Of a stretch of DNA of 53,351 bases, positions 3,378-53,351 are shown one piece after another; the first letter of the stretch is position 1; each line of letters begins with the position of its first letter. The position numbers were made by a program, and so were the translations under genes. The DNA comes from Syntrophomonadaceae bacterium. Its GTDB lineage: Bacteria; Bacillota; Syntrophomonadia; Syntrophomonadales; Syntrophomonadaceae. Where the stretch lies: NCBI GenBank assembly GCA_012718855.1, contig JAAYBS010000029.1, positions 1 through 53,351 on the forward strand. The letters run 5' to 3'. The notes under the pieces were generated by a model. The model did not search any database, was not told the DNA's origin, and saw only the letters and a list, made by a program, of their open reading frames with translations.

Positions 3378-3797
3378 AAGTAAGTAAATCGGATAGTCGC
3401 GGGCTGGAAACAGTCTGAGGAAAGTCGGAGCTCCACAGGGCAGGGTGCTGGATAACGTCCAGTGGGGGTGACCTCAAGGAAAGTGCCACAGAAATAAACC
3501 GCCCGGCACTCAAAAGAATTTAATTGTTAAAAAAACAACAAATTAACCATTTCAGTCATTGTTTTTAGCAAATTAAATTGCTTTGAGTGCCGGGTAAGGG
3601 TGGAACGGTGAGGTAAGAGCTCACCAGCATTTAGGTGACTAAATGGCTAGGCAAACCCCACCTGGAGCAAGACCAAATAGAGGAACCATGGAATTGCCCG
3701 TTCCGTTCCCGGGTTAGGTCGCTTGAAGTACCAGGCAACTGGTATTCCAGATAGATGACTATCGAAAACAGAACTCCGCTTACAGATTTACTTACTT
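3378..3797 (+). ncRNA. rnpB: RNase P RNA, bacterial type A
   Basis: This is the catalytic RNA of RNase P, which matures tRNA 5' ends. The conserved core GAGGAAAGTC is at 3416-3425. Other signature blocks are present, including GGTAAGAGCTCACC, GGCAAACCCC, AGAGGAACCATGG and ACAGAACTCCGCTTA. The ends 3378-3390 and 3785-3797 are complementary over 13 bp and form P1. The P12 region is long and AT-rich: GGCACTCAAA near 3505 pairs with TTTGAGTGCC near 3583-3593, extending into further AT pairs. A promoter and terminator flank the gene, so it is an independent unit. Confidence 0.97.
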
Positions 3798-3810
3798 TAA
3801 AAATTTAGAT

Positions 3811-3993: not shown

Positions 3994-5352
3994 ATGAAAA
4001 TTAATGATCAGGAAATGCTTAATATTGTTGAACATATGATAGATAATCCATATATGGGAGTTATCTATGTTAATGCCAAATGCGAAATACTGGTAGTAAA
4101 TGAAACTTTTGCTGAAATATTAAGCGTAAAGACAGATGCTTTGTTGGGTAAACATATCAATGAAATAATTCCAGACTCAAGATTACCACACACAATAAAA
4201 ACTGGAGAAACCAATCTCTGTGAATTATGCATTGTGAATAACCAAAAACTAATCTCTATGCGGGTACCTATTTATAATAACGGTAAAATTGTAGGCGCTA
4301 TGTCCAAGACTCTGTTCCTGGATATCTCAACTGCCCGTAATATGATGGAATTAATTGAACCTGATAATCAATCTGCACCCATATCATCAAATAAATTTTT
4401 CGGAAAATATTGCCTGGATGATATTATCGGCAATAATGCCAAACTTTGCCGAGCCAAATCTCTTTCCTTACAAGTAGCCAACAATAACTCCAATGTTCTT
4501 ATTATTGGAGAAAGCGGAACTGGTAAAGAATTATTTGCTCATGCCATACATAATGCCGGGCAACGTAAGGATTACCCTTTTGTACGCATCAACTGTACCT
4601 GCATACCTGAGAATCTGCTGGAATCAGAACTGTTCGGCTATGAAGAAGGAGCCTTTACCGGTGCTCGTAAAGGGGGTAAAAAAGGTAAGTTTGAACTAGC
4701 CGATCGGGGAACTATTTTTTTGGATGAAATTGGTGAGATGCCTCTAAACATGCAAACCAAACTGCTTAGTTTTCTACAGGAAAAAGAATTTGAGCCGGTT
4801 GGAGCTAATTATACCATTCAATCCAACGCACGAGTTATTGCAGCTACCAATACTGATTTGGAAAAAGCCGTAGCGGAAGGTAGATTCCGTGAAGACTTGT
4901 ATTACCGCTTAAACGTAGTGTCTTTGATGTTGCCTCCTTTGCGGGATCGAATAGATGATATCTCTTTGTTAACCGAATTTCTTATAAAGAAGCTTAACCG
5001 TCAGCTGTTAACCAACATTGAAGGTATTGATATTGAAGCTTTGAAATTACTGGAAAAGTATTCCTGGCCAGGAAACATTCGCGAACTGGAAAACTTACTG
5101 GAAAGAGCTATCAACCTTGCACTTCTGGAATGTGAAAAGCGTATTATTCCTACCCACTTCCCTACTCTGCAGAATAACAAGATTGAATCCAAAACTACTC
5201 TTTCCTTAAATGAAGCAGTGGAAAACCTGGAATACCAATTAATAATGAAAACTTTGCGTTCCAATAATAACAATAAAACTGTAACTGCCAGAATGCTGGA
5301 CATACATCCTTCCGTATTATACCGCAAACTTAAAAAGTATAATTTGGCTTAA
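3994..5352 (+). CDS. Sigma-54-dependent transcriptional activator (PAS-AAA-Fis)
   Basis: This 452-aa enhancer-binding protein has an N-terminal PAS sensor domain (about residues 10-115) and an AAA+ domain (about 140-370) with Walker A GESGTGKE, the GAFTGA sigma-54 contact loop and a FLDEIGEM Walker B. It ends in a Fis-type helix-turn-helix (TVTARMLDIHPSVLYRKL). I chose ATG 3994 because a run of eight G lies 7 nt upstream. An upstream in-frame ATG at 3949 lacks such a site. It lies just before a gene pair preceded by a sigma-54 promoter, so it very likely controls thiolase and acyl-CoA dehydrogenase expression. The PAS ligand is not evident. Confidence 0.93.
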   Translation: MKINDQEMLNIVEHMIDNPYMGVIYVNAKCEILVVNETFAEILSVKTDALLGKHINEIIPDSRLPHTIKTGETNLCELCIVNNQKLISMRVPIYNNGKIVGAMSKTLFLDISTARNMMELIEPDNQSAPISSNKFFGKYCLDDIIGNNAKLCRAKSLSLQVANNNSNVLIIGESGTGKELFAHAIHNAGQRKDYPFVRINCTCIPENLLESELFGYEEGAFTGARKGGKKGKFELADRGTIFLDEIGEMPLNMQTKLLSFLQEKEFEPVGANYTIQSNARVIAATNTDLEKAVAEGRFREDLYYRLNVVSLMLPPLRDRIDDISLLTEFLIKKLNRQLLTNIEGIDIEALKLLEKYSWPGNIRELENLLERAINLALLECEKRIIPTHFPTLQNNKIESKTTLSLNEAVENLEYQLIMKTLRSNNNNKTVTARMLDIHPSVLYRKLKKYNLA

Positions 5353-5471
5353 CCGGGGCAATTTTGCATTACTATTATACCTTAACGGTCTATCTTCACA
5401 TTGGTTTTTGCAATTATGCAAAATAATATTGTTATACTGCAATAAACGTATAATTATTTTGTATCCTATCA

Positions 5472-5510
5472 GAAACGCATCCTCTCATTTTGAGAGACAT
5501 GCGTTTTTTG
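5472..5510 (+). terminator. Rho-independent terminator of the sigma-54 activator gene
   Basis: AAACGCAT and CTCTC pair with GAGAG and ATGCGTTT around an ATTTT loop, with a small internal bulge. A T6 run follows. Confidence 0.85.
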
Positions 5511-5570
5511 TTAGTTTTCTTTTATAGTCCTTCTCCTGCCTTGATAAGCCTAATTACCCATCTCTCATAT

Positions 5571-5631
5571 TGCGAATATTCAGATATTTGTTAATGCTCA
5601 ATTATTGTGCCTAAATGTCTGTATATTCGTA
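5571..5631. promoter_or_regulatory. Candidate enhancer pair for the sigma-54 activator
   Basis: TGCGAATATTCAGA (5571-5584) and TCTGTATATTCGTA (5618-5631) are inverted copies of one another, matching at 12 of 14 positions. Their centres are 47 bp apart. The nearer copy ends about 48 bp before the estimated transcription start, which is close for an upstream activating site. The pair sits between the activator gene terminator and the -24/-12 promoter. Confidence 0.5.
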
Positions 5632-5652
5632 TTTTTCTGTTATTCGAAATAA

Positions 5653-5668
5653 TGGCATAAATATTGCT
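5653..5668 (+). promoter_or_regulatory. Sigma-54 (-24/-12) promoter
   Basis: TGGCATAAATATTGCT keeps the invariant GG and GC elements exactly 10 nt apart and the flanking TGGCA/TTGCT bases. Transcription would start near 5679. A sigma-54 activator gene directly upstream supports the call. Confidence 0.8.
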
Positions 5669-5720
5669 ATGTAATTAATACATTAAAAGGGAGGTGGTAA
5701 TAATAAAAAACTTTTAAACT

Positions 5721-5761
5721 TTGCGTAGTAATCCCAAAAAGAGAGAGCGGATACTGCGCAA
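5721..5761 (+). other. Stem-loop in the thiolase mRNA leader
   Basis: TTGCGTAGTAATCC (5721-5734) pairs with GGATACTGCGCAA (5749-5761) apart from one bulged A and a G-T pair. The loop is about 14 nt and purine-rich. No T-run follows, so it is not a terminator. RNA stability or regulation is possible. Confidence 0.4.
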
Positions 5762-5863
5762 CCCGATTAATTTCAGGTTTGTGTTGATCCCCATACCATC
5801 AATAGATTAGAGATAGAAAGTATTTTGAAGCGTTTTTTATGGAGGGAAGGAGTTGATATTTTA

Positions 5864-7063
5864 GTGAATGAAGTTGTAATCGTTAGTGCATGCAGAACTG
5901 CTATCGGTAAGTTCATGGGAAGTCTTAAAGATGTCTCCGCCAAGGAACTGGCTATCACTGTCGGCAAGGCAGCAATCGAACGGGCGGGTATCTCCGCAGA
6001 TATAGTGGACGAGATAGTGGTTGGTCAGGTCTATCAACATTTACAGGGTTCGTTGGTTTCACGCCAGATTGCTATGGCAGTTGGACTGCCCGTAAGCAGT
6101 AATGCCTGTAATGTTAATCAAAACTGCGCCTCGGGAATGAGGGCGCTGGAAATTGCCTGTAATAATATAATCCTGGGTAAAACCGAAATTGGTCTGGTAA
6201 TTGGGGTGGAAAATATGACCAATACCCCCTATTTACTCCCCAAAGCCCGCATGGGATATCGTATGGGCCCTGGAACCATCGAGGACAGCATGATTCATGA
6301 CGGTCTGTATGATGGAATGGTTCCTGGTCATATGGGTATTACCGCTGAGAATATTGCTGAACAATATGGAATTACACGTGAAGAGTGTGATCAATTGGCA
6401 GTAATGAGTCATCAAAGAGCTACGCGGGCAGTTCAGGAAGGTATTTTTAAACGCGAAATAGTTCCGGTCGAAATCAAGAGTAAAAAAGGTGTGCTTTTAT
6501 ATGAGACCGATGAACACATGATTCCTGATGCTAACCTTGAAACTATGGCCAAATTGCCTTCCGCTTTCAAAAAAGGTGGCGTTGTAACTGCAGCTAATGC
6601 TTCGGGAATTAATGATGCCGCTGCAGCTGTAGTAGTCATGTCCAAACAGAAAGCAATAGAATTAGGCATCACTCCCCTTATGAAAATGCTTACCATTAGT
6701 GCCGAAGGTGTAGACCCCAAAGTGATGGGACTCGGACCCGCAGTTGCTATTCCCAAAGCTTTAAAAGCCGCCGGATTAAAATTTGAAGATATTGAGTATT
6801 GGGAAATTAATGAGGCTTTTGCAGCCCAGTTCCTGGGAGTCGGACTTATGCTCAAGCAGGATTTTGGCATAGATCTGGATATGGAAAAATGTAACCATAA
6901 CGGTTCCGGTATTGCATTGGGTCACCCGGTTGGCTGTACTGCACTTCGTATAGTAGTATCACTTTACTATGAAATGGAGCGTCTGGGACTTACCGTCGGA
7001 GGCGCCTCCCTGTGCGTGGGTGGAGGACCCGCACTTGCCTCTCTGTGGACCAGAGATATATAA
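5864..7063 (+). CDS. Acetyl-CoA acetyltransferase (thiolase)
   Basis: This 399-aa thiolase carries out the last step of beta-oxidation (3-ketoacyl-CoA + CoA to acetyl-CoA), or the reverse condensation. Nucleophile Cys88 is in NQNCASG, His354 in ALGHPVG and Cys384 in SLCVGGG. The start is GTG 5864, which gives the normal N-terminus (NEVVIVSACRTAIGKF). AAGGAG lies 11 nt upstream. An in-frame TTG at 5825 would add 13 residues unlike the family. It is the first gene of the sigma-54-preceded pair with acyl-CoA dehydrogenase, 78 nt upstream of it. The usual C-terminal GGGxG element reads GGGPALASLW, a minor deviation. Confidence 0.93.
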   Translation: MNEVVIVSACRTAIGKFMGSLKDVSAKELAITVGKAAIERAGISADIVDEIVVGQVYQHLQGSLVSRQIAMAVGLPVSSNACNVNQNCASGMRALEIACNNIILGKTEIGLVIGVENMTNTPYLLPKARMGYRMGPGTIEDSMIHDGLYDGMVPGHMGITAENIAEQYGITREECDQLAVMSHQRATRAVQEGIFKREIVPVEIKSKKGVLLYETDEHMIPDANLETMAKLPSAFKKGGVVTAANASGINDAAAAVVVMSKQKAIELGITPLMKMLTISAEGVDPKVMGLGPAVAIPKALKAAGLKFEDIEYWEINEAFAAQFLGVGLMLKQDFGIDLDMEKCNHNGSGIALGHPVGCTALRIVVSLYYEMERLGLTVGGASLCVGGGPALASLWTRDI

Positions 7064-7141: not shown

Positions 7142-8977
7142 ATGACTGCCAATTTTGCTTATATGAATACCAGAGATCTGGAGTTTATTATTCAGGAATG
7201 GCTTCCCAGTGAAAGAGTTTTTAATTATGAGAAATTCAGGGATTACTATTCCAAGGATGATATTCGGGCCTTTCTGGCACCAATCTTAAAAATGGCCAAA
7301 GAAGTAGTAGAACCGACCAATACTGATGGTGATCAGAATCCGGTAAGATTAGTTAATGGTAAGGTTGAGCTGCCCAGAAGCTTTGGGCCGTTATTTAAAA
7401 AACTGCAGTCAGAAGGCTGGGGTACCAGTAATATAGACCGGTCTGAAGACTCCTATGTAATGCCTCATCTGCTGAATGGAGCAGTAATGGAATTGTTATG
7501 TGCTGCCAATCCTACTTTTTATCCCTACATTTTGCTGACCAGCGGTTCAGCTGATTTGATACAAACTTTTGGTACAGAGGAACTAAAAGAAAAGTTTTTA
7601 CCCAAAATGATGGATGGTACCTGGGCCGGCACCATGTGTTTGACTGAACCCAGTGCCGGTTCTGATGTTGGAGATATTCTCTCCAAAGCTTATCCAACTG
7701 ATGAACCCGGAATTTTTAAAATCAAAGGGCAAAAAATATTTATCACCGGTGGTGATAATGACTTTACCGAAAATATTATTCATCTATATCTGGCCCGGGT
7801 TGAAGGAGCCAAAGCTGGTACCGGCGGTATTTCATTATTCGTTGTTCCCAAGTTCTGGGTCAATGCTGACGGGACTCTGTCCGATAATGATGTAATTACT
7901 ACCGGGGTAGAGCATAAACTGGGTCAGCATGGATCCTGTACTGCTGCCCTGTCCTTTGGTGAGAATGGAAGTTGCCGCGGCTGGTTGCTGGGTAAAAACC
8001 CTCTGGAAAATGAAGGTCGTGGAGAAGGTATGGCGCAAATGTTCCAAATGATGAACCTGGCCCGCATGGAAACCGGGCATATGGCCCACTGCTGTGTTGC
8101 CAATGCCTTTTATAATGTCCGTGATTATGCGCGGGATAGAATTCAGGGCAGGCCTTTTACCAATCCCCGTGGTGAAAGAATAGCCATTATTAATCATGAA
8201 GACATTCGTCGTACCCTGATTATGGGTAAAGCTCACACTGAAGCATTCCGAGCTATGATAATGAAGGCCATGTTCTTCTTTGACGTTCGTGAACATGATC
8301 CTGACCCGCAGGAGAGGGAAAAAGCCCAGCAATATCTGGATGTTATTACGCCTCTATGTAAAGCTTATCCCAGTGATGAAGGCTGGTGGCTTTGTGGTGA
8401 AGCTATCCAGGCTTATGGAGGATATGGGTATTGTGAAGAGTATCCGGTAGCCCAGATTGCCCGTGATATTAAAATATATTCCATCTGGGAAGGAACCAAC
8501 TTCATTCAATCTATGGATTTAATTGGCCGTAAGATGGGTATGGGAAGAGGAGCAGTCTTCGCCGCCTTCCTTTCCGAAGCCAGAAATTTCACCACTGAAA
8601 ACCGTTATACAACCGGATTGGAAAAAGAATTCCGTAATTTGGACCGGGCCCTGGTAAGTGCTGACAAGATGCTTACCTGTCTGGTCGACTTTAGAAATAA
8701 CAATCCCACCATGATACCAGTTTTCGGCCGACGGGTATTAACTGCCATATCTCAATTACATTGTTCACATATACTGCTGGATATGGCCTGTGTTGCTCTA
8801 CGGAGGATAAAAGAAACAGGTACAGAACATCATGATTACAATTTCTATGTAGGTAAAATCGAGGCCGCCAAATGGTATCTGCGCAATGTTACTCCCAGCA
8901 TTGAATATATTTCCCATATTATTTGTGACCGTGATACCTCTGCTCTTGATATACCTCTCGAAGCTTTTGATTATTAA
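7142..8977 (+). CDS. Acyl-CoA dehydrogenase, long form
   Basis: This is a 611-aa FAD-dependent acyl-CoA dehydrogenase (acyl-CoA to 2-enoyl-CoA). The flavin/substrate motif MCLTEPSAGSD is at 165-175. The late motif IWEGTNFIQ holds Glu450, where family members place the catalytic base. About 150 residues follow, so it belongs to the long class with an extra C-terminal helical domain rather than the roughly 380-aa short-chain class. AGGAGGAG lies just before the ATG. It is cotranscribed with thiolase and closed by a strong terminator. No electron-transfer flavoprotein gene is present here, so the acceptor is not visible. Confidence 0.93.
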   Translation: MTANFAYMNTRDLEFIIQEWLPSERVFNYEKFRDYYSKDDIRAFLAPILKMAKEVVEPTNTDGDQNPVRLVNGKVELPRSFGPLFKKLQSEGWGTSNIDRSEDSYVMPHLLNGAVMELLCAANPTFYPYILLTSGSADLIQTFGTEELKEKFLPKMMDGTWAGTMCLTEPSAGSDVGDILSKAYPTDEPGIFKIKGQKIFITGGDNDFTENIIHLYLARVEGAKAGTGGISLFVVPKFWVNADGTLSDNDVITTGVEHKLGQHGSCTAALSFGENGSCRGWLLGKNPLENEGRGEGMAQMFQMMNLARMETGHMAHCCVANAFYNVRDYARDRIQGRPFTNPRGERIAIINHEDIRRTLIMGKAHTEAFRAMIMKAMFFFDVREHDPDPQEREKAQQYLDVITPLCKAYPSDEGWWLCGEAIQAYGGYGYCEEYPVAQIARDIKIYSIWEGTNFIQSMDLIGRKMGMGRGAVFAAFLSEARNFTTENRYTTGLEKEFRNLDRALVSADKMLTCLVDFRNNNPTMIPVFGRRVLTAISQLHCSHILLDMACVALRRIKETGTEHHDYNFYVGKIEAAKWYLRNVTPSIEYISHIICDRDTSALDIPLEAFDY

Positions 8978-9131: not shown

Positions 9132-10481
9132 TTAAATCCGGTTAGTGCGACGCCAGATATTCATGCGGTTTGCTTCCTGAATTAATTGGTCACGAAATTG
9201 TGGATGAGCTATTTCTATTAACATTTCAGCCCTTTCCCAGGTGGGTTTACCTTTGAGCCGGGCTTTACCATATTCAGTTACGATAAAATCAACTGCTGTA
9301 CGCGGTGTGGTAACGATACTGCCCGGAGTCAATATAGGAGCTATACGGGAATGTATCTCCCCATTGCGGTCTTTATAGGTACTGCTCAAACACAAGAAGC
9401 TTTTGCCGCCCCTTGAATACCAGGCACCGGTTATAAAATCCAATTGACCACCTGTTCCTGATATATGGCGAGTACCCGCGCTTTCTGAACATATCTGGCT
9501 AAATAAATCTACCTGAACTATATTGTTGATTGCCACCACGCGATCATTCATGGCGATTACTTTGGGATTATTGGTATATCGGCCACAATGACTGGCCATT
9601 AAAGGATTTTGATGCATAAAATCATAGGTCTTACGGGTTCCTAAAACAAAGGAAAAGGCAATTTTCCCCCTATCAGTAGTCTTATACTTCCCGGTTGCTA
9701 CTCCTTCCTGAAATAAGCGAGTCATTGAATCGGTATACATCTCGGTATGAATCCCCAGGTCTTTTAAACCTGCCTCACATAATAGTTCTCCCAATAGGTT
9801 AGGTAATGCTCCTATTCCTAATTGCAGACAGGAACGATCACCAATTTCCTCCAAAATGAGCCTGGCCATCTTTTGATCTATTTCCGTTGGTTGTTTGGCG
9901 GGCGGAAGCTCAAATAAAGGTGTATTGTTGCCTTCAATAATATAATCAACCATGGAAATATGCACTGAATCCTCAGAACCTCCTGGTATACGGGGAATGT
10001 TCTCGTTAACTTCCAGAATAACCTTGGTTGCCTTCAGGCAACCTTCAAAACTATATGTATTAGCCGGACCAAAGGAGAAAAAACCATATTGATCCATAGG
10101 GCTGACCTGTTGAACATAATAATCAATTCGAAAAGTTTCATTGGAAATAACGTCCTGCAACTGGCTGAATTGAATAGGCATATAGAACATATTACCCTGA
10201 TCATGCAACCTTCTGTCCTGAACACCAAAAAACCAATTGTTACAGGTGAATTTTTCCGGTCCCTGTAGAGGTGTTTGCATTATTGGTTCAGCCATGGTGC
10301 CGCAACAAAATATTTGAACATCATTAATTTCCTGACCTCGTTTAGCTAATTCGTTATCAAATTCGACTGGCCGACCTAAAAAAGTCGCATAGAGTAAAAC
10401 ATCACCTGATTGAATCAATTTTGCCGCCTGCTCAGCATTAATAAGCTTGTCCCGGTATTGAGAATTAAAATCTTTATTCAA
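9132..10481 (-). CDS. Acetyl-CoA hydrolase/CoA-transferase family protein
   Basis: This 449-aa protein belongs to the family of 4-hydroxybutyrate CoA-transferase and butyryl-CoA:acetate CoA-transferase (ACH1/Cat1 fold). Glu247 in GIHTEM matches the catalytic glutamate that forms the glutamyl-CoA thioester. LQLGIGALPN (219-228) and SGTGGQLDF (about 344) form the CoA-binding loops. In a fatty-acid oxidiser it could activate butyrate with acetyl-CoA, but the exact acyl donor cannot be read. The start is TTG 10481, with AGGGGGG about 8 nt upstream. It is convergent with the acyl-CoA dehydrogenase operon and probably monocistronic. Confidence 0.9.
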   Translation of the reverse strand: MNKDFNSQYRDKLINAEQAAKLIQSGDVLLYATFLGRPVEFDNELAKRGQEINDVQIFCCGTMAEPIMQTPLQGPEKFTCNNWFFGVQDRRLHDQGNMFYMPIQFSQLQDVISNETFRIDYYVQQVSPMDQYGFFSFGPANTYSFEGCLKATKVILEVNENIPRIPGGSEDSVHISMVDYIIEGNNTPLFELPPAKQPTEIDQKMARLILEEIGDRSCLQLGIGALPNLLGELLCEAGLKDLGIHTEMYTDSMTRLFQEGVATGKYKTTDRGKIAFSFVLGTRKTYDFMHQNPLMASHCGRYTNNPKVIAMNDRVVAINNIVQVDLFSQICSESAGTRHISGTGGQLDFITGAWYSRGGKSFLCLSSTYKDRNGEIHSRIAPILTPGSIVTTPRTAVDFIVTEYGKARLKGKPTWERAEMLIEIAHPQFRDQLIQEANRMNIWRRTNRI

Positions 10482-15772: not shown

Positions 15773-15783
15773 GGATTAACGAG

Positions 15784-15872
15784 ACAAAGGGGAGCTGAAC
15801 TAATTCGGCTGAGAGTGGACTGGTTGGTCCTGACCCTAAACCTGATCTGGGTAATGCCAGCGTAGGGATCAA
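15784..15872 (+). promoter_or_regulatory. TPP (THI element) riboswitch aptamer
   Basis: The aptamer is recognised by the THI-box blocks GGGGAGC, GGCTGAGAG, GACCCT, ACCTGATCTGGGTAATGCCA and GCGTAGGGA in canonical order. It binds thiamine pyrophosphate. The bases ACAAA at 15784 and TTTTGT at 15875-15880 can extend helix P1. It stands before a thiamine-binding protein and ABC transporter, which fits repression of thiamine uptake when TPP is plentiful. Confidence 0.97.
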
Positions 15873-15885
15873 TATTTTGTGATTC

Positions 15886-52201: not shown

Positions 52202-52849
52202 TCACCTTTTATCATTAAACAATTCCATACCGGTAAGGTCCTCCCACCGGGCCATAATCACTGCGACTCTAAAAATAATAGCATTGGCATGATCAATGGC
52301 TACTTTCTTTCCAGCCGCTTTACCACCTACAGTTAAGGCAGCTATAAGACTGGTCATCATTCCCCCCAATATAAACAGATCGACGGTACCAAACCAGTCG
52401 ACCAGACTTAAAACTATACCTGCTCCGATAGCTCCACTTAGAGTACCAGCTATATCACCAATTACATCATTGCAAAAGTTAGCCACTTTGCTGGCGTTCC
52501 TGGTTATTTTAACCGCCTGCCGGGCACCATATACTTTTTTGGCTGCCCTGGCATTAAACGGCGGTAAAACTGCTGCCGTCGCAGCCGTTCCAATCATATC
52601 AAAAAATACCCCAACCAGAATTATTAATATTAACAACGGAATAGATACCAATACACTGTTAACAGCACTTACCAGACTTTCTGCTCCGATACTGACCAGT
52701 AAGGCAATGAAAAAAGTAAAAAAGGTAACTGTCAGTGCTGATATCAAAACATTTTTATCATTAAAAATATGGGTCCGCAACAATAAGTAATTTACCTCCA
52801 TAAAAAACAATCTGGCAAAAGGTTGTCTGTTGAGTAAACGCTGCGACAT
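52202..52849 (-). CDS. oapA: OLE-associated membrane protein OapA
   Basis: The open frame codes up to 215 aa with four membrane helices, near 35-58, 64-84, 136-156 and 163-185. A strongly basic stretch between helices 2 and 3 (PPFNARAAKKVYGARQAVKI, then TRNASKVANFCNDVIGDI) is well suited to RNA binding. Four helices, size, and the position between a large structured RNA and dxs identify OapA. The real start may be ATG 52801 or TTG 52783. GGAGG at 52799-52795 precedes the latter and would give 193 aa, near the known 21 kDa. The ATG at 52849 lies at the RNA end without a good Shine-Dalgarno. Confidence 0.85.
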   Translation of the reverse strand: MSQRLLNRQPFARLFFMEVNYLLLRTHIFNDKNVLISALTVTFFTFFIALLVSIGAESLVSAVNSVLVSIPLLILIILVGVFFDMIGTAATAAVLPPFNARAAKKVYGARQAVKITRNASKVANFCNDVIGDIAGTLSGAIGAGIVLSLVDWFGTVDLFILGGMMTSLIAALTVGGKAAGKKVAIDHANAIIFRVAVIMARWEDLTGMELFNDKR

Positions 52850-52857
52850 AGGTCCAG

Positions 52858-53351
52858 CAGGTTTTCCCCGTGGAGCTCCCGACTGTTGCCAGAGGGGCGG
52901 TTTCCCTTTATGTCCACATTACCGCGTCACCGCAAGTAAGGCTGGATTACCACTTAGTGCACACTTTAATCCTCAACAAACCGTGCCAAAGCACACAGTC
53001 TAGGAGTTTTCCTCAACAACCCACATTAATTTCTAGCCTCTTTTGCAGTATACGGTTTCAAAGCAGATAACAAATCCTTGGCCGAGGTATTTGGTACCCA
53101 TTAATGCTTATCCGCCGCCACCACTCAAGGCAGGCTACACTGCACCCAGCTTTCACCAAATGCAGGTTTTCTTAGTAAAGCTTAAAACTTACTAAGCCTC
53201 CACGGGTGCGGGGTCAGACTCCACATGCCGTTGCGGAATGCCCCATCACCCTTAACTCCCAGCAAAGACCCCTGACTGGGCGTCAAAAGCCGATACCAGA
53301 ATCTTCATCGATGTGCCATTTACGGATTTTTAGGCCCGTCTTTGAAATTAA
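52858..53351 (-). ncRNA. ole: OLE RNA (ornate, large, extremophilic), 5' end outside window
   Basis: The last 494 nt have no credible ORF on the minus strand and are denser in GC-rich helices than the rest of the window. A long-range helix pairs CCCGTGGAG (minus strand, + coordinates 53198-53206) with CTCCACGGG (52867-52875). Local hairpins include CTTAGTAA/TTACTAAG (about 53171-53196) and CTGCA/TGCAG (about 53140-53165). OLE RNA is about 600 nt and lies upstream of a 4-helix protein and dxs in Firmicutes, exactly as here. About 100 or more nt of the 5' part must lie past the window end. I identify it from context and structure, not from an alignment. Confidence 0.85.

Follow-up and report, generated by a model that had tools for sequence, protein, structure and literature searches.

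A sigma-54 promoter of a thiolase and acyl-CoA dehydrogenase operon in a Syntrophomonadaceae bacterium, with candidate sites for two activators

The thiolase and acyl-CoA dehydrogenase genes analysed here lie behind a sigma-54 promoter, at positions 5653-5668 of a 53,351-base stretch of DNA (hereafter the window, meaning this whole stretch) from a bacterium of the Syntrophomonas group, whose members degrade butyrate. The window is contig C229 of an assembly that comprises 2.09 Mb in 231 contigs and is 82.66% complete. The best explanation of the data as a whole, which we consider reasonably likely, is that two activators (EBPs) feed into this one operon promoter and that the transcript carries an orphan Shine-Dalgarno (SD) sequence at its 5′ end. 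RNA polymerase with sigma-54 would wait at the promoter, which would be opened by an ATP-driven EBP looping over from its site upstream. The local PAS-EBP, encoded at 3994-5352, would act through a palindrome at 5563-5575 (U3), and perhaps also through a similar palindrome in the tip of a terminator hairpin (5483-5495). A CBS-PAS-PAS EBP encoded in trans on contig C35 would act through a second palindrome at 5408-5421 (U4) and would also switch on a CoA-transferase gene, which would tie substrate activation to beta-oxidation. Transcription would begin near 5679, and the orphan SD, at about +12, might hold a 30S subunit and thereby protect the mRNA. The hypothesis that the window and its relatives yield is a concrete one, in which two activators act on one operon through two palindromes of defined sequence.

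The promoter and its operon

The promoter, TGGCATAAATATTGCT on the plus strand, fits the sigma-54 consensus TGGCAYRNNNNTTGCW and keeps the spacing between the -24 GG and the -12 GC, in the frame TGGCAYR-N4-TTGCW. It is the sole consensus match on either strand of the window, where 0.07 would be expected, and one of seven exact matches in the assembly. With one mismatch allowed, the genome holds 82 matches versus 35 for a reversed-pattern control, and many of the single-mismatch sites elsewhere are therefore noise. An earlier note on this DNA had proposed the promoter from its GG/GC spacing, had placed it ahead of thiolase and acyl-CoA dehydrogenase with an activator gene adjoining, and had named absence of rpoN as one finding that would overturn it. 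Both proposals were borne out, and a profile search of the assembly finds rpoN elsewhere in the genome (PF04552, E = 2.7e-61). Judged by its sequence and by the conservation described below, 5653-5668 is confirmed as the sigma-54 promoter of the operon. An excerpt of PMC6615313 prints the consensus as TTGGCATNNNNNTTGCT.

The first gene of the operon encodes a thiolase of the acetyl-CoA C-acyltransferase family (399 aa; 5864-7063, plus strand), with a likely GTG start and an SD at 5847-5852, and the second an acyl-CoA dehydrogenase of 611 aa (7142-8977, plus strand; PF00441 and PF12806). These enzymes probably serve fatty-acid breakdown, oxidation being the presumed direction rather than synthesis. 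Convergent with the dehydrogenase gene, a CoA-transferase gene occupies 9132-10481 on the minus strand, its match to TIGR03948 lying under the cut-off.

The order of EBP gene, consensus sigma-54 promoter and thiolase gene is conserved in relatives, across genera. At a threshold of E <= 1e-142, orthologs of the window EBP occur in 10 of 54 sampled genomes of the family (the window's own genome counted in both figures), and the closest named relative, from a Syntrophomonadaceae MAG, is 91% identical. An exact-consensus promoter follows the EBP gene in all nine orthologs with a readable stretch; the tenth (G077) consists of N there. The contig of G001 stops past the promoter, its thiolase lying on another contig. 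The 611-aa dehydrogenase comes after thiolase in the window as well as in G012, G030, G061, G062, G027 and G075; G002 has a shorter dehydrogenase of a different kind (28% match) in that place. G011 (locus L212) and G029 (L211) retain promoter, thiolase and dehydrogenase with no EBP adjoining. Of the loci selected for annotation, 19 have hydroxyacyl-CoA dehydrogenase, enoyl-CoA hydratase or thiolase genes downstream of an EBP, and 18 of these carry a sigma-54 match with zero or one mismatch between the EBP and those genes, the exception being L209. Two such loci, L309 and L310, share one single-contig genome.

The operon might instead be transcribed mainly by read-through or by way of a sigma-A promoter located in its leader, with the sigma-54 site playing a minor part, and three weak sigma-70-like matches do lie within 5300-5880. 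That number, however, is the shuffle mean (3 versus 3.1), the EBP gene is followed by a hairpin with a T-run, and the sigma-54 site is the element conserved across genera; we regard this explanation as very improbable. The hairpin (5473-5509, plus strand; z = -5.3) was missed by a strict terminator scan and probably terminates transcription of the EBP gene. The tip of the hairpin, at 5483-5495, is itself a palindrome, TCTCA-N3-TGAGA.

Activators and their candidate sites

The local EBP (plus strand, 452 aa from a probable ATG at 3994; the longest ORF runs from 3949) has a sigma-54 AAA+ domain (PF00158, Sigma54_activat, 1.8e-69) with a clear lid and a Fis-type HTH (HTH_8, 6.5e-13). Its GAFTGA motif is intact; three orthologs have GSFTGA and one GAFSGA. 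The PAS-AAA-Fis architecture given in the earlier note holds for the AAA+ domain, the HTH and the motif, and the PAS domain is a putative one: the N-terminal PAS_9 score of 26.0 lies under the Pfam cut-off of 27, a profile built from the family hits the cytoplasmic PAS domain of CitA at 1.8e-18, and strands and helices follow one another in a PAS-like order in the predicted model (mean pLDDT 80.3, pTM 0.56). Compared with known structures, the model aligns with FleQ (Z 30.9, rmsd 1.5, 251 aligned); the structural matches listed are to the AAA+ domain and carry no information on the PAS part. The protein falls short of PrdR (NF041552), scoring 420.5 bits against a curated 795. Just 5′ of the EBP gene, Rfam places a class A RNase P RNA at 3381-3798.

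Two cysteines in a CxxC arrangement, C76 and C79 as counted from the Met at 3994, are invariant in all 10 EBP orthologs and are not found at that place in 10 other compared EBPs that cover the position, hinting at a possible thiol, redox or metal role. Residues i and i+3 of a strand normally face opposite sides, and because both cysteines lie on one predicted strand (74-81), an intramolecular disulphide between them is not favoured.

A self-contained switch had been proposed earlier, in which this EBP binds an inverted pair close to the promoter. The pair exists: its arms match at 12 of 14 positions and, extended to 5573-5589 and 5613-5629, at 15 of 17. It is somewhat above chance in the window sequence alone, since Markov shuffles of the 143-bp stretch reached 12/14 in 5 of 200 cases and 15/17 in none of 200. 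Nevertheless, we reject it as the main activator site because it is not conserved outside the genus. In a same-genus relative the left arm is unchanged but the right arm is altered (13/17), and in the remaining nine thiolase promoters, other genera among them, the best 17-nt pair reaches 10-12/17 and is placed elsewhere. Moreover, the conserved element at the left arm is U3, with which that arm overlaps. The inverted pair is thus probably not an activator site, and the switch as first proposed seems improbable.

U3 itself (TCTCATATTGCGA, of the form TCKCA-N3-TGCGA, 9/10 in the window) is the candidate site of the local EBP; the pattern TCKCANNNTGCGA has one match genome-wide, that in the window. 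At a match of at least 9/10, U3 occurs in seven of the nine thiolase promoters with an adjacent EBP, in neither of the two that lack one, and in none of 11 CoA-transferase promoters, counts that come from related and hence not independent genomes and, for both palindromes, from the same sequences that yielded them. Most of its sites in thiolase promoters lie near -90 and -170, counted from the -24 element; in both thiolase promoters of genus g9 it falls under 9/10. All 5+5 palindromes with spacers of 0-12 were also scanned against 200 shuffle sets. In the thiolase set U3 ties for first place (7/9; shuffle maximum 6) with the AT-rich ATATT-N10-AATAT, and in the CoA-transferase set U4 comes first (all 11 of the 11 promoters given; shuffle maximum 9), tied with its own other register, TGCAA-N2-TTGCA. 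On the simplest reading, U3 would be the site of the local EBP.

U4 (TTGCAATTATGCAA, of the form TTGCA-N4-TGCAA) has a companion site of 8/10 at 5429-5442 in the window. The pattern TTGCANNNNTGCAA occurs at four places in the genome: at 5408 in the window, twice on contig C35, and once within coding sequence. Both C35 copies lie 5′ of a CoA-transferase sigma-54 promoter, the 14-mer being identical to that of the window or to its complement, and this CoA-transferase gene is convergent with the gene of a CBS-PAS-PAS EBP, as it is in those relatives where both genes are seen. Against TIGR03948 (butyryl-CoA:acetate CoA-transferase) the C35 enzyme scores 582.8 bits, under the curated 674.8, and is a related enzyme of putative substrate range. 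At a match of at least 9/10, U4 is found in 11 of the 12 CoA-transferase promoters of the family that have a recognised sigma-54 site; in most of these it forms arrays with sites about 50-56 and 21-23 bp apart. Five genomes (G029, G023, G031, G013 and G009) have two to four U4 sites per CoA-transferase promoter and no window-EBP hit at the ortholog threshold, yet they have hits to the C35 EBP.

Because U4 occurs at CoA-transferase promoters even where there is no ortholog of the window EBP, we assign it, as its probable owner, to the second, CBS-PAS EBP. Likewise, because its 14-mer stands twice at the C35 CoA-transferase promoter, near a different EBP, the switch is probably not self-contained, and that part of the earlier proposal was not sustained. 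At thiolase promoters U4 is more scattered, being present at 9/10 or better in five of the nine with an adjacent EBP and in one of the two without (G029 has two U4-like sites, G011 none). It is missing from the thiolase promoters of G012, G030, G061, G062 and G011; of these, G012 and G062 possess the second EBP, with a weak U4 at the CoA-transferase promoter.

Alternatively, the local EBP could be the sole activator, binding both palindromes or U4 alone, with the C35 CoA-transferase as its target in trans. The presence of U4 in the window promoter, the same 14-mer at C35, and the statement in excerpted text of PMC6615313 that EBP genes usually adjoin their targets would all fit. However, U4 sites stand at the CoA-transferase promoters of the five genomes named above, which have hits to the C35 EBP and, at the ortholog threshold, none to the local one, and the thiolase promoters of genus g12 have the EBP and U3 without U4. 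We judge a sole activator unlikely, and prefer that the two EBPs act through separate palindromes. A fuller version, in which a local PAS-EBP with a CxxC (possibly a thiol or redox sensor) at TCKCA-N3-TGCGA, a CBS-PAS EBP at TTGCA-N4-TGCAA and a STAB-SD operate together in syntrophic fatty-acid oxidisers, is offered tentatively. CBS domains commonly bind adenylates, and if this version were true, redox and energy state would jointly license beta-oxidation at the thermodynamic limit.

The genome as a whole gives 10 matches to PF00158, six of them strong EBP matches. At one other locus (L238, contig C48) a different EBP gene precedes a consensus sigma-54 promoter, after which come three CoA-transferase-like genes in a row. 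At another (L236, contig C3) a consensus sigma-54 promoter lies about 5.8 kb 5′ of a further EBP, before unassigned ORFs.

Relation to known systems

An EBP beside sigma-54-driven acyl-CoA genes is already described in Clostridia. The predicted CrbR, XcgR and YctR regulons of Clostridiales cover butyrate-type acyl-CoA genes and, as presented in excerpts of PMC6615313, likewise have the EBP gene near a sigma-54 promoter, there driving thl/hbd/crt/bcd-type genes from upstream activator sites (UAS) 100-250 bp upstream. For those regulons the text names butyrate or butanol synthesis, whereas the pair in the window is a thiolase and a 611-aa dehydrogenase; and CrbR is set apart by its reported UAS, TGT-N10-12-ACA, the best palindromes of the window being TTGCA-N4-TGCAA and TCKCA-N3-TGCGA. 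The main text of PMC6615313 does not mention Syntrophomonas. A cross-phylum survey, in the portion of PMC12316311 available, predicts that sigma-54 targets include COGs of beta-oxidation (acyl-CoA dehydrogenase, thiolase, CoA-transferase), with an enrichment in Clostridia and Bacilli; that survey is one of promoter prediction, to which our analysis adds candidate EBP sites.

Two EBPs acting on one sigma-54 promoter have been described in Vibrio fischeri (excerpt of PMC10162802), although there the organism and the EBPs are different and the target is a regulatory RNA. Syntrophomonas wolfei Swol_0456, described in part of PMC4324140 as a PAS, sigma-54 and DNA-binding protein, resembles the window EBP by description, and the same text calls the regulation of metabolism in syntrophic consortia little known. 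In the library searched, no paper was found that links sigma54 with butyrate oxidation and syntrophy, and none that links sigma-54 and an enhancer binding protein with acyl-CoA dehydrogenase and beta-oxidation. The details that would be new are the input from two EBPs and the STAB-SD, both of which we infer from the window and its relatives.

The leader and its orphan Shine-Dalgarno sequence

The orphan SD, GGAGGTG at 5690-5696 on the plus strand, is not followed by an ORF and lies about 150 nt ahead of the thiolase gene's own SD. It recurs in 10 of 11 THL leaders and in 8 of 10 leaders of hydroxyacyl-CoA dehydrogenase operons, and the leader of G077 carries it too. It is present in one of 11 CoA-transferase leaders, which rules out a general trait of sigma-54 leaders, and in one of four further leaders of the same genome; the SD core occurs in 41 of 250 control genes without a sigma-54 site. 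When nine leaders are aligned, two elements alone stand out, the SD of the gene itself and the orphan SD, the latter being the best conserved part of the leader. A leader-peptide start is not favoured, as nine of 10 have no start codon at a usable spacing; the exception, G001, has an ATG, one further codon and a stop after the orphan SD.

A STAB-SD is recognised as an SD-like sequence near the 5′ end with no ORF behind it, and the orphan SD has these features relative to the predicted start. It may stabilise the mRNA by way of the 30S subunit. In Bacillus thuringiensis the STAB-SD of cry3A, according to an excerpt of PMC4113751, binds 30S and blocks RNase J1, and is similarly SD-like, near the mRNA 5′ end and not a place where translation starts. 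Unlike it, the element in the window, a putative stabiliser, follows a sigma-54 promoter that serves beta-oxidation genes.

A further conserved RNA element was considered for the leader and set aside: Rfam gives no match there, and the alignment of nine leaders brings out the two SDs only. Elsewhere in the window, Rfam identifies a TPP riboswitch at 15778-15885 and, on the minus strand at 52803-53351, an OLE RNA (RF01071, 438 bits) that runs off the window end.
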